This document shows, piece after piece, positions 15,697 to 45,957 of a DNA stretch of 64,000 nucleotides. Source of the stretch: Thermincola carboxydiphila. GTDB taxonomy: Bacteria; Bacillota; Thermincolia; Thermincolales; UBA2595. Each line of letters begins with the position of its first letter. Position 1 is the first letter of the stretch. Below the pieces are notes generated by a model that did no database searches, was not told where the DNA came from, and saw nothing but the letters and a program-made list of their open reading frames with translations. Location: NCBI GenBank assembly GCA_016841725.1, contig JAENYP010000017.1:42096-106095 (forward strand). Reading direction: 5' to 3'. A program made the translations under genes and the position numbers.

Positions 15697-17472
15697 ATGA
15701 GAAAATTGCAGCCGCTATTTTTAAGGGGGTTCCTGTTTCCGGTTATCATGTTATCTCTGTTTATTACTGTTACTTTTGCCGGTCCCGCATTTGCTGATAC
15801 CATAGGTCCTACATATTCGGGAATCAGTCCTGTAGAGGGGGCACAGTTAAGTACTGGAAAAGTTACAATATCAGTTACTGCCAAAGATAATGATAAGGTA
15901 AGTGATGCTTCAGTCATTATGAAGGTAGACGGGACAGCGGTTTCACCGATAAAAGAGTATGGCTGGCTTAGTGAATGGGAGGATGACTATACAATACTAA
16001 ATATTTATTACCCTGCTAACCTGTCACAGGGTGACCATACAATATATGTGGGAGTAAAAGACGTTAGGGGAAACTTCTCTGAATACACGTGGTCCTTAAC
16101 AGTGGCTGCGCCGCCGCAGATAACTTCAAAGACCCCCCTTGAGGGCGCTATAGTGACTTCTCTGAAACCCGAGATTTCGGCTGTAGTGAAAAACATTGAG
16201 GTAATTGATCCAGACTCTCTGCTAATGACTCTTGACGGAAAAAAGGTAAATGCTGAATACGATACGGCCACCGGCAGGGTTTCTTTTACACCGTCTGCAG
16301 ATATTGACAATGAATCTGTTCATACGGTGACTCTTGAAGTATCCGGTCAATCAGGGAGTACAGTTCAGGCCCAATGGACCTTTAAGACAAATACATATGA
16401 GGAAATGGCTTTTAATGTGAAGGATGAAACATGCCAATCCTGCCACCCGCGGTCAGAGCACTTGATGACTAACTGTGCCGGGTGTCACGGGACTAATCTG
16501 AATGCCAGCAGGCCGGTTTATCCCGTTGATGACTGTTATAAATGCCATTTTGAATCATCTAATTATCCTGTTTCATATCACAGCAGCGGATTACCCGTAT
16601 ATGTGGCACCGGAGCATCCTGTACAGGCAACTGACAGCTGCATCGCTTGTCACGATAAAACATGGCAGACAGATATCCCCCAGTATCATACCATTACAGA
16701 TACTGCTGACCGTCACCTGACATCATCAGCAGGCTGTGAGGAATGCCATGCCAAAAGCCTGACCAGGGAACACTACAGAAGGACTGACAGCGCCGGTAAC
16801 AGCCTGACCTGTAACACCTGTCACACCAGCGAAGCAGCCGAGGTTCAGGATGCTATCACCAATGAGGATTCATCATGTGCGGCATGTCACGATTTGGGAG
16901 AGTCAGGAGGCCATCCGGCACACGAGGGAGGGCTGGATGCAGCCTGTCAGACCTGCCACTCGAGCTCTATACTAAGTGAACCCCAGTTCCACAGCCAGAA
17001 CGGATGTCAGGTATGCCACAGTGAAAATGCCCCGGAAATAGTGCAGTATTCTATTGATACCCGCAACACAAGCTGTTTTTCCTGCCACAATGAGGGGCAC
17101 AATGTCAATATGATACCTAAGGTTCCTAAAGATATACCTTTGTACCCGGGATTTGAGTGGACTGTTCCCCAGGATGCCCGGATTTTTGCAGGAGAGCTCT
17201 GGTTTGACAAGCAGTATGAATCTGCCGGGGCTAAAATAATAATTTCAGACAGGCAGCAGTCAGTTGATGGGAACGATGTCGCCTCATGGTATGAGCTGGA
17301 ACTGGGTCAAAACGGTTGGACAAAATCAAAGGAAAACATTAATACTGCAGATAATTTCTCAGTAACCTATACTAAGGAAAACAGGATGGTTACTGTCAAT
17401 TTCTATGCAGGAGAAACCAATGATCCGGCAGCTCCATTTGTAGGCCATAAAATAGAAATGCTGTATAAATAG
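15697..17472 (+). CDS. Secreted decaheme cytochrome c with Ig-like N-terminal domains
   Basis: A 591-residue exported protein. A signal peptide (about 1-34) ends near AGPAFAD. Residues about 35-240 form two Ig-like/bacterial adhesion-type domains (GPTYSGISPVEGAQL and ITSKTPLEGAIVTSL mark their starts). Residues about 245-470 contain ten CxxCH heme motifs, from CQSCH and CAGCH to CQVCH and CFSCH. The C-terminal 120 residues carry no heme motif. It is probably a periplasm- or wall-located electron carrier. No cytochrome c maturation gene is nearby. GGGGCGAAATAAGG precedes the ATG. Confidence 0.85.
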   Translation: MRKLQPLFLRGFLFPVIMLSLFITVTFAGPAFADTIGPTYSGISPVEGAQLSTGKVTISVTAKDNDKVSDASVIMKVDGTAVSPIKEYGWLSEWEDDYTILNIYYPANLSQGDHTIYVGVKDVRGNFSEYTWSLTVAAPPQITSKTPLEGAIVTSLKPEISAVVKNIEVIDPDSLLMTLDGKKVNAEYDTATGRVSFTPSADIDNESVHTVTLEVSGQSGSTVQAQWTFKTNTYEEMAFNVKDETCQSCHPRSEHLMTNCAGCHGTNLNASRPVYPVDDCYKCHFESSNYPVSYHSSGLPVYVAPEHPVQATDSCIACHDKTWQTDIPQYHTITDTADRHLTSSAGCEECHAKSLTREHYRRTDSAGNSLTCNTCHTSEAAEVQDAITNEDSSCAACHDLGESGGHPAHEGGLDAACQTCHSSSILSEPQFHSQNGCQVCHSENAPEIVQYSIDTRNTSCFSCHNEGHNVNMIPKVPKDIPLYPGFEWTVPQDARIFAGELWFDKQYESAGAKIIISDRQQSVDGNDVASWYELELGQNGWTKSKENINTADNFSVTYTKENRMVTVNFYAGETNDPAAPFVGHKIEMLYK

Positions 17473-17598: not shown

Positions 17599-17620
17599 CG
17601 GAACCACAGGCTTTATTAAT
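17583..17620 (+). terminator. Riboswitch-controlled terminator
   Basis: GCCTGTGG (17583-17590) pairs with CCACAGGC (17604-17611), followed by TTTATTAATT. The 5' arm is also the 3' arm of the last aptamer helix, so metal binding should prevent the terminator and turn the gene on. Confidence 0.75.
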
Positions 17621-17634
17621 TGGAGGGATGTCTT

Positions 17635-18843
17635 ATGACGCTTGAACAGGAGAGCGCTGAAAAAAAAGCGGTGGCTTTGAGTTCGGTATTTGCCTCACTA
17701 TTGCTTACAGGAGGGAAAATGGCTGTTGGGTTGTACACCGGAAGCCTGGGTATACTCTCAGAAGCTGCCCACTCGGCCCTGGACCTTTTTGCTGCCCTGA
17801 TTACATATTTTGCTGTCAGGGTGTCAGACAGACCTGCCGATGAGGAGCATCATTACGGGCACGCCAAGGTGGAGAATTTTTCTGCCCTTATCGAGGCCTT
17901 GCTGCTGCTCCTTACCTGTGTGTGGATAATTAAGGAAGCTGTAAATAGGTTGTTTTTTGTACATGTGCCTATTGAGGTAAATGTATGGAGCTTTACTATC
18001 CTGGTGGTATCCATTCTGGTCGATTTTTCCCGGTCAAGGGCCCTTGCCGGAGCAGCAAAAAAATATAACAGCCAGGCCCTGGAAGCTGATGCCCTGCATT
18101 TTTCCAGTGATATTCTAAGTTCGGCTGTAGTGCTGGTTGGTCTGGTTTTTGCACGGTTTGGGATAAACTATGCTGACCCTGTGGCAGCATTGATAGTAGC
18201 AGTTATTGTCATTGTGGCCAGTGTACGCCTGACCGTGAAAACGGTTAATGCACTCCTCGATAAAGCTCCTCGCGGCCTGGACAGGGATATTGCCAATGAA
18301 GTAATGGAGACACCCGGGGTTGTCGGAGTTCATAAGGTACGCCTGCGTGTAGCCGGGGGCCGCATTCACGGTGACATGCATGTGGTTATCGACAGGAACA
18401 TATCATTTGTGGAAGGGCACCGGATTGCGTCCCTGGTGGAGGAAAAGCTGTCAAGGCATAGTAACGATATTTTGGTCCACTTTGAGCCTGAGGATGATTG
18501 GGAAGCCGTAAACAGCAGCATTCTTAAAACAGAACAGGCTGTCACCCGGTTAATGGTTGAGAAAAGCCCGGGAATAAAGGGATACCACAACCTTGTTGTC
18601 AGGAGGGGGCCGGGAGGCACTGATGTGATTATACATATTGTAATGCCCGGGGATATTTCTGTGTCCCGAGCCAGGGAGTACTGTGATGACATTGAAAGTG
18701 AGATTAAGAAGGAACTTGAAGATACTAATATGCATTTTCATATAGAGCCCTGTGAAGGTCTTTGTAATGACTGTCAGATTTGCCCGGACTGTGAAGAAAA
18801 GGATGAAATGACTCAAAAGGGTGAAAAGGATGAAAAGGGATAA
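17635..18843 (+). CDS. Cation diffusion facilitator metal exporter, riboswitch-linked
   Basis: A 402-residue CDF protein with six membrane segments. The metal site helix contains SEAAHSALDLFAALITYF, preceded by TGSLGIL, and the second half shows the matching LHFSSDILSSAVV. A long cytoplasmic domain follows, and the C-terminus has a cysteine cluster (CEGLCNDCQICPDC) that probably binds metal. The upstream NiCo-type riboswitch suggests Ni/Co export, though Zn or Fe remains possible. ATG 17635 follows GGAGGG by seven bases; an earlier TTG is excluded because it overlaps the site. Confidence 0.88.
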   Translation: MTLEQESAEKKAVALSSVFASLLLTGGKMAVGLYTGSLGILSEAAHSALDLFAALITYFAVRVSDRPADEEHHYGHAKVENFSALIEALLLLLTCVWIIKEAVNRLFFVHVPIEVNVWSFTILVVSILVDFSRSRALAGAAKKYNSQALEADALHFSSDILSSAVVLVGLVFARFGINYADPVAALIVAVIVIVASVRLTVKTVNALLDKAPRGLDRDIANEVMETPGVVGVHKVRLRVAGGRIHGDMHVVIDRNISFVEGHRIASLVEEKLSRHSNDILVHFEPEDDWEAVNSSILKTEQAVTRLMVEKSPGIKGYHNLVVRRGPGGTDVIIHIVMPGDISVSRAREYCDDIESEIKKELEDTNMHFHIEPCEGLCNDCQICPDCEEKDEMTQKGEKDEKG

Positions 18844-19002: not shown

Positions 19003-20613
19003 ATGGTGTACAGCGGTTGTAAAAAGAAAAATTACGGAACAGTTAGTTACAGACTTCTAAATAAAAAGGTAATTGAAGATAATCTTGATACACTGATGTC
19101 CATTAATAAAAGAGTCAGTGTAACAGATGCTTTCCCCGACTTGTTTGGGGTTGATGACAGACAGGTGCTGCTTTCCTCTGTTTCCCGGTTAAAGAAGACT
19201 GTTCTTAATGAAACAGACTCGTATAGGTTTATAAAGGTCAATAATTTACTGTCGGTAATCGGAGAGATTTTTTCCGGAGAACAGTTTGTATTAAATGAAA
19301 TAATGGCAGTTACCAGGTCCCGGCAGGTAAGCAAGGATATCAAAATTCTTTTTTTGTCTTTCCTTGTTGACATTGGGATGGAAGAAGAGGTTATTGCGAC
19401 ACTTTTTGATCTTGACGAACTGGCGGAAATGGCTGAGTTTGCGACTGATAACCTGATAGGCCTTATCAGGGGAGATCTTGGAGATAAGCTGCTCTTTTTA
19501 CAGGAGTTTGGCGGTTTTGATGACCAGGGGCAGGAGGAAATAATGAAACAGCTTGCTGAGGAAAATACCGATGCTGCTGCTGAAATGCTGGGTGTCCTGG
19601 CATATGCCTATGAAGCTGGTATTGCTGCTCCGGCTGTAAGTCTCCTGGGTAAGAATCTCAGGGCGCGAAAAGTGAGTATCCTGAATGAACTTGCATCCTG
19701 TAATGACAAGTTTATTATCGCTTTAGCCAGGCGCGTTCTTTCAGAGTGCAATAAGGACGGAAGGCGTAAGCCGTCACGCAGAAAATGGGAAAAACCCAAT
19801 GGAGAGCTATATGATGCGGTTGTAAGTTCAGTAGACGGACAGGGTAACAGGGCTGTTTGGCTTGCATGGAAACTGCCTAACCGAAAGAATAGGATAGTGG
19901 CCTTTAATTTGCTGTTGAATACGGCTACAGGAATCAAGGACTGTTTCGGTATCCCGGTTCTGACCAAAAAGGATTTTGAAAACATGATTCAAGAAATATC
20001 CCGCAGTGCGGTTGTTTTGAGAAATGACTATAAATACTGTATGTCACTGGTTAGAGGGGCTTTGAAAAAAAACCTTTCAGAAGGCTACCGTATACCCATG
20101 GAGTTTGCTTTTTGGCGCCGGTGTATGGATGATGATATTTATCCTGAAGAATATGTTCCCGTATATAATGAATTTGTTCCTGAGACAGAGAAACAGATAC
20201 AGGACTGCTATGACCGTCTGGAGATGCTTTTTGAGGAACGGGAATTTGCGGTTTGGTATGAAGAAACACCTGAAGTTTATGATACGGCTGAGGAGATTAT
20301 GGCATTGGCTGACAGAAACACCGGTCAGACCTATGCCAGAAAAGTTATGAAACTGGAGAACCGGATCATTAACAAAGTGATTAAGCCCATGCTGCCTGTA
20401 ATCAAAGACCGCCTAAAAATAACAATTGATTTTCTGCAAAGGGCAGGCAAGGAGACTCTTGCCAGGGAAGCAGTTGTTTGCCTGATTACACTTGATTCTG
20501 TGCCTGTTGAGCAGCACCCGTTTATTAGGAGAATGTGTTTTGAAAGCATTTCATCTGCGATAAATAACCTGAAAAACGGGGTCGATATCAGAGTAGACCC
20601 TGAATATATGTGA
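19003..20613 (+). CDS. Hypothetical helical-repeat protein
   Basis: A 536-residue soluble protein I do not recognise. It has no signal peptide or membrane segment. Residues about 60-240 look like helical (HEAT-like) repeats, for example DIKILFLSFLVDIGMEEEV. A basic stretch (GRRKPSRRKWEK) follows at about 253-264. The C-terminal half is mostly helical. GTGGAGG precedes the ATG. It stands alone between the CDF exporter and the ArsR/CadA pair and ends in a strong hairpin. A scaffold or protein-binding role is only a guess. Confidence 0.6.
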   Translation: MVYSGCKKKNYGTVSYRLLNKKVIEDNLDTLMSINKRVSVTDAFPDLFGVDDRQVLLSSVSRLKKTVLNETDSYRFIKVNNLLSVIGEIFSGEQFVLNEIMAVTRSRQVSKDIKILFLSFLVDIGMEEEVIATLFDLDELAEMAEFATDNLIGLIRGDLGDKLLFLQEFGGFDDQGQEEIMKQLAEENTDAAAEMLGVLAYAYEAGIAAPAVSLLGKNLRARKVSILNELASCNDKFIIALARRVLSECNKDGRRKPSRRKWEKPNGELYDAVVSSVDGQGNRAVWLAWKLPNRKNRIVAFNLLLNTATGIKDCFGIPVLTKKDFENMIQEISRSAVVLRNDYKYCMSLVRGALKKNLSEGYRIPMEFAFWRRCMDDDIYPEEYVPVYNEFVPETEKQIQDCYDRLEMLFEEREFAVWYEETPEVYDTAEEIMALADRNTGQTYARKVMKLENRIINKVIKPMLPVIKDRLKITIDFLQRAGKETLAREAVVCLITLDSVPVEQHPFIRRMCFESISSAINNLKNGVDIRVDPEYM

Positions 20614-20803: not shown

Positions 20804-21163
20804 ATGAAGAAAGTGCTCGACAGGTGTGAGGTAGTTTGTATTAACCATGAGGCAGTAAACCGTGTCAGGGAAAAAATGCTTGATGAAGAGGTGATCAGGA
20901 GTATTGCCGATATATTTAAGGCGCTGGGTGACCCTAATCGGGTAAAAATTATCAGGTATCTGGCCCAGGAGGAATTGTGTGTATGTGACCTGGCACAACT
21001 GCTGGGTATGAGTCTGTCGGCGGTTTCCCACCAACTTAGGGCGCTGCGCAGCCGCAGGCTGGTTAAATTCCGCCGGCAGGGGAAAATAGTATATTATTCA
21101 CTTGATGATGCCCATATTGTCGATTTGTTTAACCAGTGCCTGGACCACGTAACCCATGACTAA
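20804..21163 (+). CDS. ArsR/SmtB-family metal-sensing repressor, CadC-like
   Basis: A 119-residue winged-helix repressor. ALGDPNRVKIIRYLAQEELCVCDLA contains the alpha-3 metal site pair CVC; the recognition helix follows (SAVSHQLRALRSRRLV, then GKIVYYSLDD). The N-terminus has further cysteines (RCEVVC), as in CadC for Cd/Pb/Zn, and the last helix DDAHIVDLFNQCLDH has possible alpha-5 zinc ligands. CGGGAGG precedes the ATG. It most likely represses itself and the ATPase gene 69 bases downstream until metal binds. Confidence 0.9.
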   Translation: MKKVLDRCEVVCINHEAVNRVREKMLDEEVIRSIADIFKALGDPNRVKIIRYLAQEELCVCDLAQLLGMSLSAVSHQLRALRSRRLVKFRRQGKIVYYSLDDAHIVDLFNQCLDHVTHD

Positions 21164-21232
21164 TCAGGAGTCGCACGTATCCTGAAGGCGTAATAGTGTT
21201 GTGTTCGACTGACATAATCGGGAGGGGAAGTT

Positions 21233-23395
21233 ATGAAAAACGGCTATATTGCTGAAGGGAATGTAATTGAATCTGGAGTGGCCGGTTCCGGGGAAATTAA
21301 TTCTGTTATTGAAGTATCTGGAATAGACTGACTGGACTGTGCAGGGAAGCTGGTTAAAAAAATTGAACAACTTCCCGGTGTGGCTGAGGTTCAGCTAAAT
21401 TTTGGAGCAGGTTTGATAAAGGCGGTACACAAAAACATATCAGTTGAGGATGTTATCAGGCTTATCAAGTCCAATGGCTATGATGCCAGGGTTCAGGGTG
21501 GCCCGCAGGATGCTGCCAAGCCTGCGGGCAAACTAAAGACCAGGAAGGTTTTGGCTGTGGTCTCCGGGCTGATGCTGGGAGCAGGGTTGGTTTCCGAGTG
21601 GGCCTGGCCTTCCGGCGGTTTTCAGGTATATTTGTATGCCGCAGCTATGGCTGCGGGAGGGTATTATGTATATAAAACGGCATTAAACTCACTGAAGAGC
21701 CTCATTTTGGATATGAATGTCCTGATGAGTGTTTCATCTGTCGGAGCAGTCTTTCTGGGACAATGGTCAGAGGGAGCGACAGTCGTGTTCCTGTTCAGTG
21801 TGGGTAACCTGCTGCAGGCATATACCATTGATAAAACGAGAAGTTCAATTAAAAAAATGATGCAGCTGGCTCCCAAGGAAGCAAGAGTAATAACCGGTGA
21901 CGGCAGTGAATCCATGATTCCCGCAGAAACAGTTACTGTTGGGGATACGATTTTGGTGAAGCCGGGGGAGAGCATACCTGTGGACGGAACTGTAATAAAG
22001 GGCCTGTCCTGGGTGAACCAGTCCTCAATAACAGGTGAGTCCAAACCGGTTGAAAAAACTGATGGGGAAGAAGTTTTTGCGGGTTCTCTTAATAATGAGG
22101 GCAGTCTCTTTATTAAATGCACCCACCTGGCTGCAGACAGTACTCTGGCAAAAATGATCCAAATGGTTGAAGAGGCACAGGCTAAAAAAGCCCCTTCACA
22201 GCAGTTGGTTGATGTCTTTGCCAGGTATTATACCCCTGCGGTCATTATAGGTGCGGTTTTAGTTGTTGCAATACCTGTGCTGCTGCTGGGCCTGCCCTTT
22301 GCAGACTGGTTCTATAAGGCACTGGTACTCCTGGTTATTTCATGTCCCTGTGCACTGGTTATTTCCACTCCGGTATCTATAGTGTCGGCTATCGGCAATG
22401 CGGCGAGAAACGGTGTTTTAATCAAGGGCGGTGTATACCTGGAGGCTCTAGGAAAGGTAAAAAACATTGCTTTTGATAAAACCGGGACAGTAACAACAGG
22501 TATGATGAGTGTGACAGATATTTACCCTGTTAATGGCATTGACAGTGAGCAGCTTTTACAGGCTGCCGGCGCTGTGGAACGGTTTTCCGAACATCCCCTG
22601 GCCAGGTCGGTAATGGCTGAAGTGTCAAAAAGAAAAATTTCCCTGCCGGATTCAGATTCCTTCCGCTCATTTCCCGGGAAGGGTGCAGTATGCAAGGTGA
22701 ATGGCAAAGAAATTTATGCCGGGAACAAGCGGTTTCTAAATGACCTTGGCATTCCTATGGAGGAAATTGCACAGACGGAAGCAGATCTCGAGAATGCAGG
22801 GAAATCAATCATATTTGTCACAACTTCAAGAAGATTGCTGGGTATTTTGGGGATAGAGGATGTTCCCAGGGCTTTAGCGGGGGATGCCATGCAGCAGCTG
22901 CAGCTGCTCGGCATTGAGAAGATTGTTATGCTCAGCGGCGATAATGAGGCTACTGCGGCTAATATTGCCGGAAGACTGGGAATTAAAGAGTACCGTTCCA
23001 ATTTGCTTCCCGATGATAAGGTCAGGGAAGTCGAGGCCCTCACCCGGGAAGGGGAGACTGTTATGGTTGGGGACGGGGTGAATGATGCCCCAGCCCTGGC
23101 AGTTGCCACTGTGGGCATAGCCATGGGAGCGGCAGGCACCGATACGGCATTGGAAACAGCAGATGTTGCCCTGATGAATGACGAATTGCTGCATATTCCT
23201 GCTGTGATCAAACTCGGCAGAAAGACAAGGGCGATTATCGGACAGAATGTTGTCACAGCTGTTGCCCTGAAGCTGATTTTCCTGGTTCTGACACTTGCAG
23301 GGATATCTAATCTATGGATGGCAGTGTTTGCTGATACGGGGGCTTCGGTTTTGGTGACCCTAAATGGGATGAGGCTGGCCCGCCACCGTTTTTGA
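21233..23395 (+). CDS. cadA: CadA/ZntA-type heavy-metal P-type ATPase with UGA-encoded selenocysteine in its metal-binding motif
   Basis: Reading TGA 21329-21331 as selenocysteine gives a 720-residue protein from ATG 21233, which follows GGAGGGGAAG. The N-terminal HMA domain then reads GIDULDCAGKL (U33, C36) where homologues have GxDCxxCA. Downstream are A-domain TGESKPV, transmembrane metal site SCPCALVISTP (C371, C373; typical of Zn/Cd/Pb exporters), phosphorylation site DKTGT (D415), SEHPLA and GDGVNDAPAL. A gene caller ignoring recoding would start at GTG 21380 and lose half the HMA domain. A hairpin follows the TGA. The CadC-like gene upstream suggests metal induction. Confidence 0.85.
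21329..21376 (+). promoter_or_regulatory. Selenocysteine UGA codon and candidate bacterial SECIS hairpin in cadA
   Basis: Twelve bases after the TGA, GGGAAG (21344-21349) pairs perfectly with CTTCCC (21371-21376). An inner GTT/AAC pair closes an A-rich apical loop. Position and size suit a bacterial SECIS, which lies immediately 3' of the UGA within the coding sequence. Confidence 0.6.
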
Positions 23396-32351: not shown

Positions 32352-32391
32352 GTTGTTTCATTAATTTTAAATAAAAAAGGAGCGATTCAAA

Positions 32392-32703
32392 TTGATTAGT
32401 TTTACAGATGCAGCACAGGAAGAAATGAAAAAAGTGCTGGATGCAAATGATTCGGAAATGATTAGAGTTGCCTTTGCCGGAATGGGTTGAGGCGGCCCAA
32501 GTTTTGGTCTGGCTTTGGAAAAGTCAGCTAAAGACAATGATGAAATCTTCGAATATGAAGGTTTTAAGGTTGTAATCAGCAAAGATTATAGTGACATGTA
32601 CAAAAACCTCGTTATTGACTGGGTTGATAATTACATGGGCAAGGGTTTTAGCGTATCCGAAAAAGATGCGGGCGGCTGCAGCAGTTGCTCCGGAAGTTGT
32701 TAG
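32392..32703 (+). CDS. HesB-like selenoprotein
   Basis: Reading TGA 32488-32490 as selenocysteine gives a 103-residue HesB/IscA-like protein starting at TTG 32392, nine bases after AAAGGAG. The UGA lies in AGMGUGGPSFGLALE at residue 33, where IscA-type proteins have a cysteine. The C-terminus has GGCSSCSGSC, like the CxC-type ending of IscA. HesB-like selenoproteins of this form are a known family. The role is probably iron-sulfur or selenium/sulfur handling. A gene caller ignoring recoding would report only a 62-residue fragment from 32515. Confidence 0.9.
32488..32512 (+). promoter_or_regulatory. Selenocysteine UGA and candidate SECIS in the HesB-like gene
   Basis: Directly after the TGA, GGCCCAA pairs with TTTGGTC (one mismatch, one G-U) around a two-to-four-base loop, a plausible bacterial SECIS in the expected place. 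Confidence 0.5.
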
Positions 32704-38988: not shown

Positions 38989-39010
38989 TGCTCTTTGATG
39001 AAAACACAAT

Positions 39011-39612
39011 GTAGGTGGCGCAGTATTCTAGTCAGGACTGCCACTTTGAAGGCGGGCCTAAAAATCCGTCAAAGGGCATATCGATGAAGTTCCTGGTTCC
39101 GGCTGCTGACGCCCAGTTGGGGGTCGGTTCTGGGAGTAAGGGGGAAGGGCGATCTACAACGGCATGTAGGCGTTGACCCAGCCTCCGTGGAGGCCCGGGA
39201 AGCATACCGGCTTTTAGCAAGGGTAACTTCCCGGGAGAAACCTGCGTATATGATGCTGTGCTACGGTACAGTGTTTAAAGCAGTGTAGCCTGCCTTGAGT
39301 GGTGCTGGTGGATTATGGGTTATCGGACCTGTTGAATGCGGGCCCGCTTTCGACAGAACCGCTGTTTGAAACCACCACTGCAAAAGAGGCTAAAAGTGTT
39401 CCAGTCCTGTTGAGGAAAACTCCTAGACTGTTTAGTTTTACTAAGGCATGATAGGGATTAAAGTGTGGACTAAGTGGTAATTCAGCCCCGTAAGCGGCGA
39501 CGCTACGGATTCATCATAAAGGGAAACCGCCGGAGCGGTAACGCGACGGAGATGAATGGGAAAACCAGCTGGACCTTAAGCCACAATATTTACTTATCGT
39601 GCTGCCACCTAC
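39011..39612 (+). ncRNA. ole: OLE RNA (ornate, large, extremophilic RNA)
   Basis: A non-coding stretch of about 600 bases with many GC-rich stems. GTAGGTGGC (39011) at the start and GCCACCTAC (39604) at the end would close the whole structure. Length, position between ispA and dxs, a dedicated promoter, and the oapA gene immediately downstream are the established hallmarks of OLE RNA. OLE forms a membrane-bound ribonucleoprotein with OapA and is linked to resistance to ethanol, cold and magnesium stress and to energy metabolism. Confidence 0.92.
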
Positions 39613-39664
39613 CATATACTTAAAACACAACCAAGCTGCCGATGCTTGTATGAGGTGAAATTAT

Positions 39665-43222: not shown

Positions 43223-43269
43223 TTATAGGGTGAAACTATTTGTTGGTACGCACACAGGGGGTGGGCGAC

Positions 43270-45006
43270 TTGGGTTATTCCAAATTTAAAATAAGTGATG
43301 TCACACTTAAGATACTGATGGGGTATCTGGGTGTAGTCATAATGCTTACACTGGTTATGATTGTTGCTGACACCAATATGGCCAGAATTCAGCAGGCTAT
43401 TGATGACAGTACATATAAGTTTCTGCCTCAGATTAATATTGCCGGAAGCATCCAGTCTATTGTTCAGGAACAGCAAATGCTGACTCGGGATTTTACTGTA
43501 GGCAATAAAAACATCAAAGAGAAATACCGGGAACTGGACAGGCAGTTTAAAGCAAAGATAACCGAGTTTGAAGCTATGGTAGGCAATGACCCTCAGGATG
43601 AAGAAACCCTGAAAAGCCTCAATAGAGTGGATAGGGAACACGACAACTTTAATCTGGTGGCTAATCATATCTTCAAATATGAGGAGGCCGGACGTGATAA
43701 TTTGGTTGATACCCTATGGGGCAATTACCGGTTGGCGGGAAACAAAATGATTGAAACAGCCAACCAACTGGTTGAAGGAACCCAGCAACAGGCCACTGAA
43801 GCCCAGGAGAAAAGCCGGGCTATCCTGCTGACCTCGCGCAGTATTATGTATTCAATTGCAGTAGTTGCCATTATCGGGTGTTTTACCCTTACTTTCATAA
43901 CCTCAAAGAATATTACCACACCCTTGATGAATCTGGTCCGTGTTTCCAGAAATATTGCGGAAGGTGACCTGACCCAGAAAATCAAGGACAACTCCATTGG
44001 AGAGTTCAGTGAACTGGCCAAGTCATTCAATATTATGGTAGACAACCTCAGGGCAATAATTGAACGAATAGTGGACTGGAGCAGAGAAATTGCTTCTGCA
44101 AGCGAAGCCTTTGCATCACATACCCAACAGAGTGCAGCAGCTTATACAAAAATCGACCGTTCCATTAATGACGTATCAGAGGGAGCCAAACAACAGGCTA
44201 ATGGCATTGCAGAGCTGCAGGCATCCGCAGAAACAGCCATGGAAGCAATTAACAACATTAACCTGAGCATCCAGATGATTGACCGGACTACAACATCGGC
44301 AGCCGATATGGCCCAAAAAGGCGGGGGCTCAGTCAGGGCGGCCATTGAACAGATGAACCTTATTGAACAGAAGGTAGACCACCTGTCCCTGGATGTTAAA
44401 ACACTTGTAAGTGATGTAAATAAAATTTCTGAGATTATTGATATGATCTCAGGGTTTGCCAAGCAGACAAATCTTCTGGCTCTTAATGCGGCGATTGAGG
44501 CAGCCAGGGCAGGTGAACAGGGAAAAGGCTTTGCGGTTGTTGCCGAAGAAGTGCGTAAGCTGGCTTCCGGTTCAGGACAATTGGTGGAAAAGATACGCCA
44601 GATAATAGCCCAGATACAGAAACGATCACAGGATGCTGTTTTATCAATGGATGAAGGCCGGGAGGTAGTTGCAGCCGGGACAGTTGTTATCAATGATGCC
44701 GGAGAAATACTTACAGAAATAATTGAGGCTGTTCATACAGCATCTGAACAAACCAGGGAAGTAGTGCATAACACCCAGCAGATAACAGTCAGCAGTCAGT
44801 ATATCGTCCAGGAAGTTACTGAAAACAGTAAGATATCAAAGAAAACCGTGATGACATCCCAGGAAATGTCCGAACTGGTTATTGCTCAATCTAAAGCTGT
44901 TATTGAATTCTTTGATGCGGCTAACAGTTTGGCCGGTATGGTACATCAACTACAGGAAGCAGTTTCCAAATTTAATGTTGACAGCGAAGATACCTTTGAT
45001 TCTTGA
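43270..45006 (+). CDS. Methyl-accepting chemotaxis protein
   Basis: A 578-residue receptor. One membrane segment near residues 14-35, an extracellular four-helix-type sensor domain (about 36-195), a second segment (about 196-218), HAMP, and a signalling domain with the hairpin tip EIIDMISGFAKQTNLLALNAAIEAARAGE. The ligand is unknown. TTG 43270 is placed after AGGGGGTG; an earlier TTG at 43240 is weaker. It lies 12 bases before a cytochrome lipoprotein gene, so the two are probably cotranscribed. Confidence 0.87.
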   Translation: MGYSKFKISDVTLKILMGYLGVVIMLTLVMIVADTNMARIQQAIDDSTYKFLPQINIAGSIQSIVQEQQMLTRDFTVGNKNIKEKYRELDRQFKAKITEFEAMVGNDPQDEETLKSLNRVDREHDNFNLVANHIFKYEEAGRDNLVDTLWGNYRLAGNKMIETANQLVEGTQQQATEAQEKSRAILLTSRSIMYSIAVVAIIGCFTLTFITSKNITTPLMNLVRVSRNIAEGDLTQKIKDNSIGEFSELAKSFNIMVDNLRAIIERIVDWSREIASASEAFASHTQQSAAAYTKIDRSINDVSEGAKQQANGIAELQASAETAMEAINNINLSIQMIDRTTTSAADMAQKGGGSVRAAIEQMNLIEQKVDHLSLDVKTLVSDVNKISEIIDMISGFAKQTNLLALNAAIEAARAGEQGKGFAVVAEEVRKLASGSGQLVEKIRQIIAQIQKRSQDAVLSMDEGREVVAAGTVVINDAGEILTEIIEAVHTASEQTREVVHNTQQITVSSQYIVQEVTENSKISKKTVMTSQEMSELVIAQSKAVIEFFDAANSLAGMVHQLQEAVSKFNVDSEDTFDS

Positions 45007-45018
45007 GGGGGGAACAGT

Positions 45019-45957
45019 GTGAAATCTAAATTGGTGGTATTATTGTTAATTGTCCTATTTACAATTGTTTTGGCCGGTTGCTTACAGAGGGAAGGAAGCC
45101 CAGATGATAAAGCGCCGGAGAGAGCCAAGGTTACAGATGCACAGGTAAAAGAGTTCCAACAGAACAAGCAAAAGAACCGGGTGGATATATATATACCCAT
45201 TAAAGAGCAGTATGCTACCAGCAGCCATGTAGAATCACTTTCCAATCTGCTGGAGAGTGATCATGCGACTGCCGAATGTTACCAGTGCCATTCTGCCGAA
45301 TATTTTCTGGCCCCTCCTGACCAGAAACCTGATATTGCGGGTGTGAAGCTTTCAATCACCTGTGCTGTCTGTCATGTTTTGACCCAGAGTGAGTTTAAGC
45401 TCAGGTTAGAGCCTCTGGAAACATGCACTTCCTGCCATAATGCCACAAAAGAAATTGTGGCAGGGGAAGTAGTCCACCATCCCCAGAAAGAAATGTTCCT
45501 GGGTTATGGCGCTATCGGCGTGCCGGTGATTCCGGATTCAAAATACAAAGCAGGGCTTACATGCATAGAATGTCATATGCCCAATGAGGCCCATAGCTTT
45601 GAAGGCAAAACTCCGGAGGAAGCTTTAAAGGAACATACTGAGAGTATTTGTGTCATGTGTCATGCTGATCAGTCTGAAGAGGAATTTGCCAAAGAGGTTG
45701 CTAAAATGCAGCTGCAGATTGAGAAGAATTGTGAAGACCTGGAGAAAAAACTGGCAGAGTCAAAGAAGAAGCTGGACATCCGTAGAAACCAGGGTATTCA
45801 GGTGGATCCGGCCCAGGAAGTGTACAACGTGGTATATACCAACCTTTCATTTGTTATAGCTGACGGAAGCAAGGGAATTCACAACTTCGATTACTCCACC
45901 AGAATCCTTGACTATACACAAAAAAGATACCAGGAGTTGGCAAACCTTTTGCAATAA
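45019..45957 (+). CDS. Pentaheme cytochrome c lipoprotein
   Basis: A 312-residue lipoprotein (signal ends in VLAGC, Cys21). Five CxxCH motifs follow: CYQCH, CAVCH, CTSCH, CIECH and CVMCH. The C-terminal 100 residues are a coiled-coil-like, heme-free region (NCEDLEKKLAESKKKLDI). The fold resembles NapC/NrfA-related multihemes only loosely. It is likely an extracytoplasmic electron carrier or sensor. Its tight coupling to the chemoreceptor is odd. Confidence 0.83.
   Translation: MKSKLVVLLLIVLFTIVLAGCLQREGSPDDKAPERAKVTDAQVKEFQQNKQKNRVDIYIPIKEQYATSSHVESLSNLLESDHATAECYQCHSAEYFLAPPDQKPDIAGVKLSITCAVCHVLTQSEFKLRLEPLETCTSCHNATKEIVAGEVVHHPQKEMFLGYGAIGVPVIPDSKYKAGLTCIECHMPNEAHSFEGKTPEEALKEHTESICVMCHADQSEEEFAKEVAKMQLQIEKNCEDLEKKLAESKKKLDIRRNQGIQVDPAQEVYNVVYTNLSFVIADGSKGIHNFDYSTRILDYTQKRYQELANLLQ

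Follow-up and report, generated by a model that had tools for sequence, protein, structure and literature searches.

An in-frame UGA at the first metal-binding cysteine of a ZntA/CadA-type ATPase gene, and its predicted decoding as selenocysteine

Most selenoproteins of known function are oxidoreductases, as stated in the accessible part of PMC2398784, and selenocysteine (Sec) at the position where a pump binds its metal would stand in contrast to that norm. A family of Sec-containing metal ATPases (COG2217 ZntA/TIGR01525, with a UxxC motif) is listed in the accessible parts of PMC2398784, PMC9312934 and PMC13188914, and likewise in those of a 2020 review (PMC7435645). The available portion of a 2016 survey (PMC5029168) gives counts of 25 and 32 for the family, in two columns with headings outside that portion, and the 2026 review PMC13188914, in the part available, credits the family to a 2007 paper. 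The same part of the 2026 review states that the roles of such selenoproteins in metal detoxification need further investigation. The word ATPase is absent from PMC12013277 and PMC1794560, and a search by title and start of abstract, with subscription journals mostly outside its scope, found no study devoted to the family. The Sec-type pump family is already described in print, and the gene reported here is a further member; what we did not see described, in the parts of the literature covered, are a recurrent exchange of its first HMA cysteine, a subgroup without the neighboring Asp, and a functional test.

The window, that is, the whole 64,000-nucleotide stretch of a Thermincola carboxydiphila contig that was analyzed, carries at positions 21233..23395 of the forward strand the gene of a metal-exporting P1B-2 ATPase of the ZntA/CadA type, 720 residues long if its one in-frame UGA is read through. 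This codon, TGA at 21329..21331 (+), belongs to the frame that runs from ATG 21233 to the terminal TGA at 23393-23395, is the only internal stop of the frame, and stands at the first cysteine (Cys1) of the HMA CxxC motif, where the translation reads GIDULDCAGKL, or U33-x-x-C36, with residue 33 a predicted Sec. The first-pass annotation had put the UGA at exactly this cysteine, in a frame open back to ATG 21233 and served by a GGAGGGG site of its own, and the translation bears out the frame, the codon position and the motif; the Shine-Dalgarno-like GGAGGGG is found at 21221..21227 (+), 5 bases 5' of the ATG. The sole conventional frame of the gene begins at a GTG (21380..23395, +) and is without the first half of the HMA domain. 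A plasmid search with positions 21000-21450 of the window gave no match.

The assignment to the ZntA/CadA type follows from matches along the whole protein. The translation scores 616.5 bits against TIGR01525 (cut-off 346.25) and 518.9 bits against TIGR01512 (cut-off 313.5), and is not called ZntA proper because two ZntA-specific models, NF033775 (549 vs 1240) and NF008262 (612.3 vs 1005), score it under their cut-offs. With Cys substituted for Sec, the Pfam HMA model matches residues 25-83 at 23.9 bits, just below its cut-off of 24.8, and the HMA domains of 16 PDB sequences are matched, including ZntA (1mwy) and a cadmium ATPase (2aj0). An alignment with ZntA 4umv spans residues 27-719 at 470 bits and places U33 on ZntA residue 59, a cysteine that, together with its CxxC partner and the preceding Asp, we take to bind metal in ZntA. 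P1B-2 ATPases are marked by DKTGT, TGES, GDGVNDAP, CPC and the D-x-G of the last membrane helix, and the translation contains FDKTGTVT, ITGESKP, GDGVNDAP, SCPCAL and ADTGAS. To judge from these motifs and the adjoining SmtB-like repressor, the pump probably exports Zn, Cd, Pb or Hg.

The same codon recurs at the same position in relatives. At 1e-140, 8 of the 10 genomes of the window's own class give a match, and all seven matches that reach residue 33 contain one TGA, at Cys1. A wider phylum sample of 398 genomes, searched at a threshold of 1e-150 with at most two candidates scored per genome, yielded matches in 78 genomes (80 matches, 68 covering residue 33), of which 21 contain one TGA and three one TAA or TAG. 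All 21 TGA matches were inspected, and in 20 of the 68 covering matches the TGA falls at Cys1; in this sample no covering match (0/68) has TGA at Cys2, and none has TAA or TAG at Cys1. Two of the three TAA/TAG matches cover the site and have Cys there, and the third begins after it. The remaining TGA match, L141 (G264:C1:272500-282500), has Cys at Cys1 and its in-frame TGA where relatives have Trp, which we regard as a broken gene or a sequencing error. Public contigs, for which the best 80 of 296 loci were kept, add Sec loci of Natronincola and Alkaliphilus (L031, L051, L052), among them the cultivable Natronincola peptidivorans (L031) and Alkaliphilus transvaalensis (L052), and show the same TGA at Cys1 in at least 13 actinobacterial loci. 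The listed Sec loci retain Cys36, and no ATPase frame with a CxxU site turned up when 82 loci were scanned by pattern. Across 105 loci the codon at Cys1 is TGA in 35, TGC in 40 and TGT in 30, in a set that was chosen by similarity, with some loci fetched for having TGA. This set leaves out duplicate or truncated loci (L021-L025, L063, L064, L105, L154-L158), loci lacking a CxxC/UxxC-like HMA motif by pattern, and the Sec locus L076, whose best match starts late. Both comparisons proposed in the first-pass annotation thus came out in its favor: the Cys homologues have Cys at position 33, and related genomes, including those of Actinobacteria, have the UGA. We reject a nonsense mutation or sequencing error in the window, since 20 genomes sampled from the phylum share the codon.

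The source genome (3.88 Mb in 40 contigs, 99.99% complete) possesses the genes needed to decode UGA as Sec, selA, selB, selC and selD, all of which the first-pass annotation had named as a check. These are selB (357.7 bits, over its cut-off), a tRNA-Sec gene (selC) with anticodon tca, selA (631.5 bits) and two selD genes (G000:C37 and G000:C25; L115 and L116), each of which has one in-frame TGA itself, with the translation of one reading LSCKAGU around it. Adjoining selB is a frame for formate dehydrogenase alpha with a UGA at residue 198 (LEHQARIUHSS), whose best family is TIGR01553 (496.9 bits over the 366 residues at hand). A second UGA selenoprotein, which had been claimed for the window and left unnamed, is present as a HesB-like frame at about 32383..32700 (+), with TGA 32488-32490 in GMGUGGP; it matches Pfam Fe-S_biosyn at 46.8 bits and passes TIGR00049, and lies below the cut-offs of NF038090 IscA_HesB_Se (66.7 bits, cut-off 85) and TIGR01911 (58.4). 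The HesB-like family is named in the accessible parts of published selenoprotein tables. Another candidate, a TGA at 45004, was rejected as a selenoprotein codon, as 43240-45006 and 45019-45957 look like two genes in one frame. The window also holds a complete OLE RNA at 38999-39624 (+; RF01071, 495 bits). Reassignment of UGA throughout the genome was rejected in view of the single internal TGA of the pump gene, at a Cys position, together with the Sec system.

It is extremely improbable that the UGA in the pump gene is a true stop, closing a short upstream peptide and leaving an ATPase without half of its HMA domain to be translated from a start further along, for instance GTG 21380. Gene callers do read it so, and cut the metal-binding domain off such pumps: of the 12 database proteins nearest to the window's pump (61-97% identical), 11 begin after the UGA, and the only one that covers the site, P0005 (64% identical), has Cys. 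The weak fold of the window's own hairpin, discussed below, also counts in favor of a stop. Against these points stand the 20 genomes that keep TGA, with none showing TAA or TAG, the Sec machinery, and the GTG at 21380, 5' of which inspection of the sequence revealed no Shine-Dalgarno-like stretch. A further point against a stop is the conservation of the stretch, including Cys36, that separates the UGA from the first start codon of a usual kind. In pairwise comparisons among the window and two genus mates, dN/dS over the 58 codons after the UGA is 0.14, 0.14 and 0.17 (core 0.09-0.11), and over the 31 codons before it a noisy 1.33, 0.30 and 0.50; comparison with L023, a more distant relative, gives 0.38 after the UGA and 0.49 before it, with the core saturated. 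Codons 34-49 lie ahead of every ATG, GTG or TTG of the ATPase frame downstream of the UGA, and their conservation therefore speaks for read-through, which we infer to insert Sec.

A hairpin predicted to be SECIS-like lies at 21344..21376 (+), starting 12 bases after the UGA. The first-pass annotation had claimed a GGGAAG/CTTCCC hairpin at SECIS distance; the arms are present (21344-21349 and 21371-21376) and a hairpin is kept in relatives, but in the window copy, which contains a mismatch, folding does not exceed that of shuffled sequence (z -0.84) or synonymous recodings (z +0.04). Support for the hairpin comes from relatives, not from the window copy alone. Across six relatives of the window's clade, 92.6% of cells are paired in a nine-pair stem that shows two compensatory changes, both in L025, and in the GxT-U subgroup an 11-pair structure is 95.5% paired, also with two compensatory changes. 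The best hairpins of both clades share a lower stem, then a one-by-one mismatch, an upper stem of four pairs and a loop of five bases, and sliding the partners abolishes pairing of the stems. The controls are not striking for either: 27-161 of 500 shuffles reach the observed value for the nine-pair stem (75-97 of 500 on three of five measures), and 53-88 of 500 for the 11-pair structure. Set against synonymous recoding, the 35 Sec loci fold with a mean z of -1.34 vs -0.17 for the 70 Cys loci (p 1.2e-5, with kinship ignored), and 11 of the 12 scored actinobacterial Sec loci have z above -1, with no folding excess. The hairpin may serve as the SECIS of these genes.

The pump gene is preceded, 69 bases upstream, by the gene of an ArsR/SmtB-family metal-responsive repressor at 20804..21163 (+), which matches NF033788 at 103.3 bits, over its cut-off, and among solved relatives SmtB 1r1t (106.7 bits) and 1u2w, a cadmium-efflux accessory protein (84.3 bits); it is predicted to control the pump. 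Immediately upstream and in the same orientation, 31 of 44 Sec loci (nine of the 44 repeat a genome) and 51 of 70 Cys loci carry a relative of this repressor, and the regulator is therefore common to the Sec and Cys forms. Further upstream lies a cation diffusion facilitator (CDF) metal transporter gene at 17620..18843 (+; TIGR01297 242.5 bits, over cut-off), which is kept upstream in six related loci (L021, L022, L023, L025, L104, L106 and L158, where L023/L104 and L025/L106 are the same genomes). The CDF gene, conserved in the window's clade, shares the pump neighborhood and is at most a candidate member of the operon. Between the CDF gene and the repressor, at 19003-20613 (+), is encoded a protein of 536 residues that matches nothing in Pfam or NCBIfam at 0.001; it precedes the repressor also in L101, L021/L102 (about 88-94% identical) and L022/L103 (about 50%), and was not found in the other loci of the neighborhood comparison. 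L021, L022 and L158 also keep a gene that lies upstream of the CDF gene, at 15697-17472 (+) in the window, and encodes a multihaem cytochrome-like protein with Ig-like domains.

The reading that we favor, and consider probable, is that the gene encodes a ZntA/CadA-type ATPase whose UGA is read as Sec, likely as a softer and more reactive first-contact ligand that captures ions of the Cd/Pb/Zn/Hg type for export. A rise in metal would release the SmtB-like repressor and induce the pump gene, and full-length pump would be made only when selenium permits decoding of the UGA. Small thiols would give up Cd, Pb, Zn or Hg to the selenolate exposed at residue 33, which is softer than a thiol and also more acidic, with Cys36 then closing the metal site. 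From there the ion would move on to the membrane site at CPC; alternatively, metal loading of the HMA domain would relieve an N-terminal brake. These proposed steps of metal capture draw on knowledge of the family. Sec at the first cysteine likely grips toxic metals faster, and Sec33 may alter metal affinity and redox behavior, as the first-pass annotation had suggested. The main rival to Sec33 as a capturing ligand is that Sec is inserted as a redox switch, such that a U33-C36 selenenylsulfide formed under oxidation closes the metal site and throttles the pump. UxxC motifs act in this manner in thioredoxin-like proteins, the listed Sec loci retain the partner Cys36, and many redox selenoproteins in the accessible parts of published tables have a UxxC motif. 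The site, however, is the metal site of an HMA fold, and no redox partner gene was seen among the seven neighbors scanned, so that a switch of this kind appears unlikely.

Cys and Sec have been exchanged repeatedly at this position. The trees were built from the part of the protein that follows the HMA domain, and the Cys/Sec trait thus cannot shape them. On a tree of 113 rows (without L062, L063 and L105, and with a group bearing a MDCPTEE-like motif included under the Cys label) the Cys/Sec label needs 8 changes, 5 of them forced by well-supported branches; on a tree of 98 rows (without L059, L061, L071, L074, L079, L083, L094, L098, L107 and L112) it needs 10, of which 8 are forced. A more careful tree of 50 rows, hand-chosen from the 98 so as to keep all Sec groups and the near Cys rows, needs 9 changes, 8 forced, with a bootstrap range of 9-10, and a single Sec group occurs in 0% of its 200 bootstrap trees. 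The counts come from unrooted trees and give exchanges in either direction, gains and losses of Sec together. In the 50-row tree L141 groups with three Sec rows (support 100/100, inner order unresolved); it has TGC where its sister loci have TGA, and its genome G264 (96% complete) is without detected selA. Detection of selA in 34 of 36 Sec genomes (L085 and L100 being the two without) compares with one of four genomes whose Cys members lie in or beside Sec clades (L050 yes; L067, L069 and G264 no), giving a Fisher p of 0.004 for four genomes that were picked after seeing the tree, in a comparison where completeness is not given for most genomes and two actinobacterial Cys rows may be sisters of Sec rows. 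Within the phylum sample alone, selA does not separate carriers, being present in 20/20 Sec genomes vs 51/58 others.

These counts bear on the view that Sec33 is inserted without benefit, Cys and Sec interchanging by drift wherever a Sec system exists. Sisters with Cys and with Sec do both occur in genomes with selA (L050, L031), and those 51 genomes have selA with no detected TGA at Cys1, as drift would allow. Drift would, however, predict TGA at Cys2 as well, which is found in none of the covering matches, and whole clades retain Sec (13 of 15 rows in the 113-row tree, 6 of 7 in the 98-row tree). Decoding UGA as Sec is moreover costly, and we judge drift to be very unlikely.

A broader interpretation, which goes beyond Sec33 as a ligand in the window's own pump, takes in the residue that precedes the site. 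All 35 Sec ATPases of the 105-locus set have CPC and either D-T-G or D-M-G in the last membrane helix. Thr or Ser replaces the Asp before the site in 11 of the 35 Sec loci vs 2 of 70 Cys loci; L114 and L142 are examples of the Sec subgroup, and one of the two Cys loci is L141, which groups with the Thr/Ser Sec loci. Thr at the residue before CxxC is usual in copper HMA domains. Ten of the 11 Thr/Ser Sec loci also have DMG for DTG, but a link of Sec with DMG was rejected, as DMG occurs in 12 of 70 Cys loci as well (11 of those with Asp) and marks a wider clade. It is quite possible, though somewhat less likely than not, that Sec is a repeatedly evolved metal ligand: at least two phyla would have exchanged the first-contact HMA cysteine, and only that one, many times, one subgroup would also have lost the Asp (GxT/S-U-x-x-C) in a selenium-dependent change of metal preference, and Cys would return when the selenium machinery is lost. 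The presence of DMG in Cys loci slightly lowers the odds of this interpretation. Several natural Cys/Sec exchanges in one transporter family, with close Cys relatives to serve as controls, open the question of selenium's part in metal handling to direct test.

Among described systems, the closest is the listed Sec ATPase family, exemplified by ABB15669.1; by the table entries, in their accessible parts, protein family and UxxC motif are the same. Two other Sec-containing metal transporters in the accessible parts of the published listings likewise have Sec in a Cys-pair site and belong to other families: the putative mercuric transport protein (MerT-type, C/SxxU), where Sec is the second residue of the pair, and the SO_0444 Cu/Zn efflux transporter (UxC). 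The Cys-type P1B-2 Zn/Cd/Pb ATPases ZntA and CadA are alike to the window's pump in the TIGR01525 and TIGR01512 matches, the alignment with ZntA, and the CPC and DTG motifs. In contrast to them, the pump has a Sec codon for the first HMA cysteine and scores below the NF033775 and NF008262 cut-offs.
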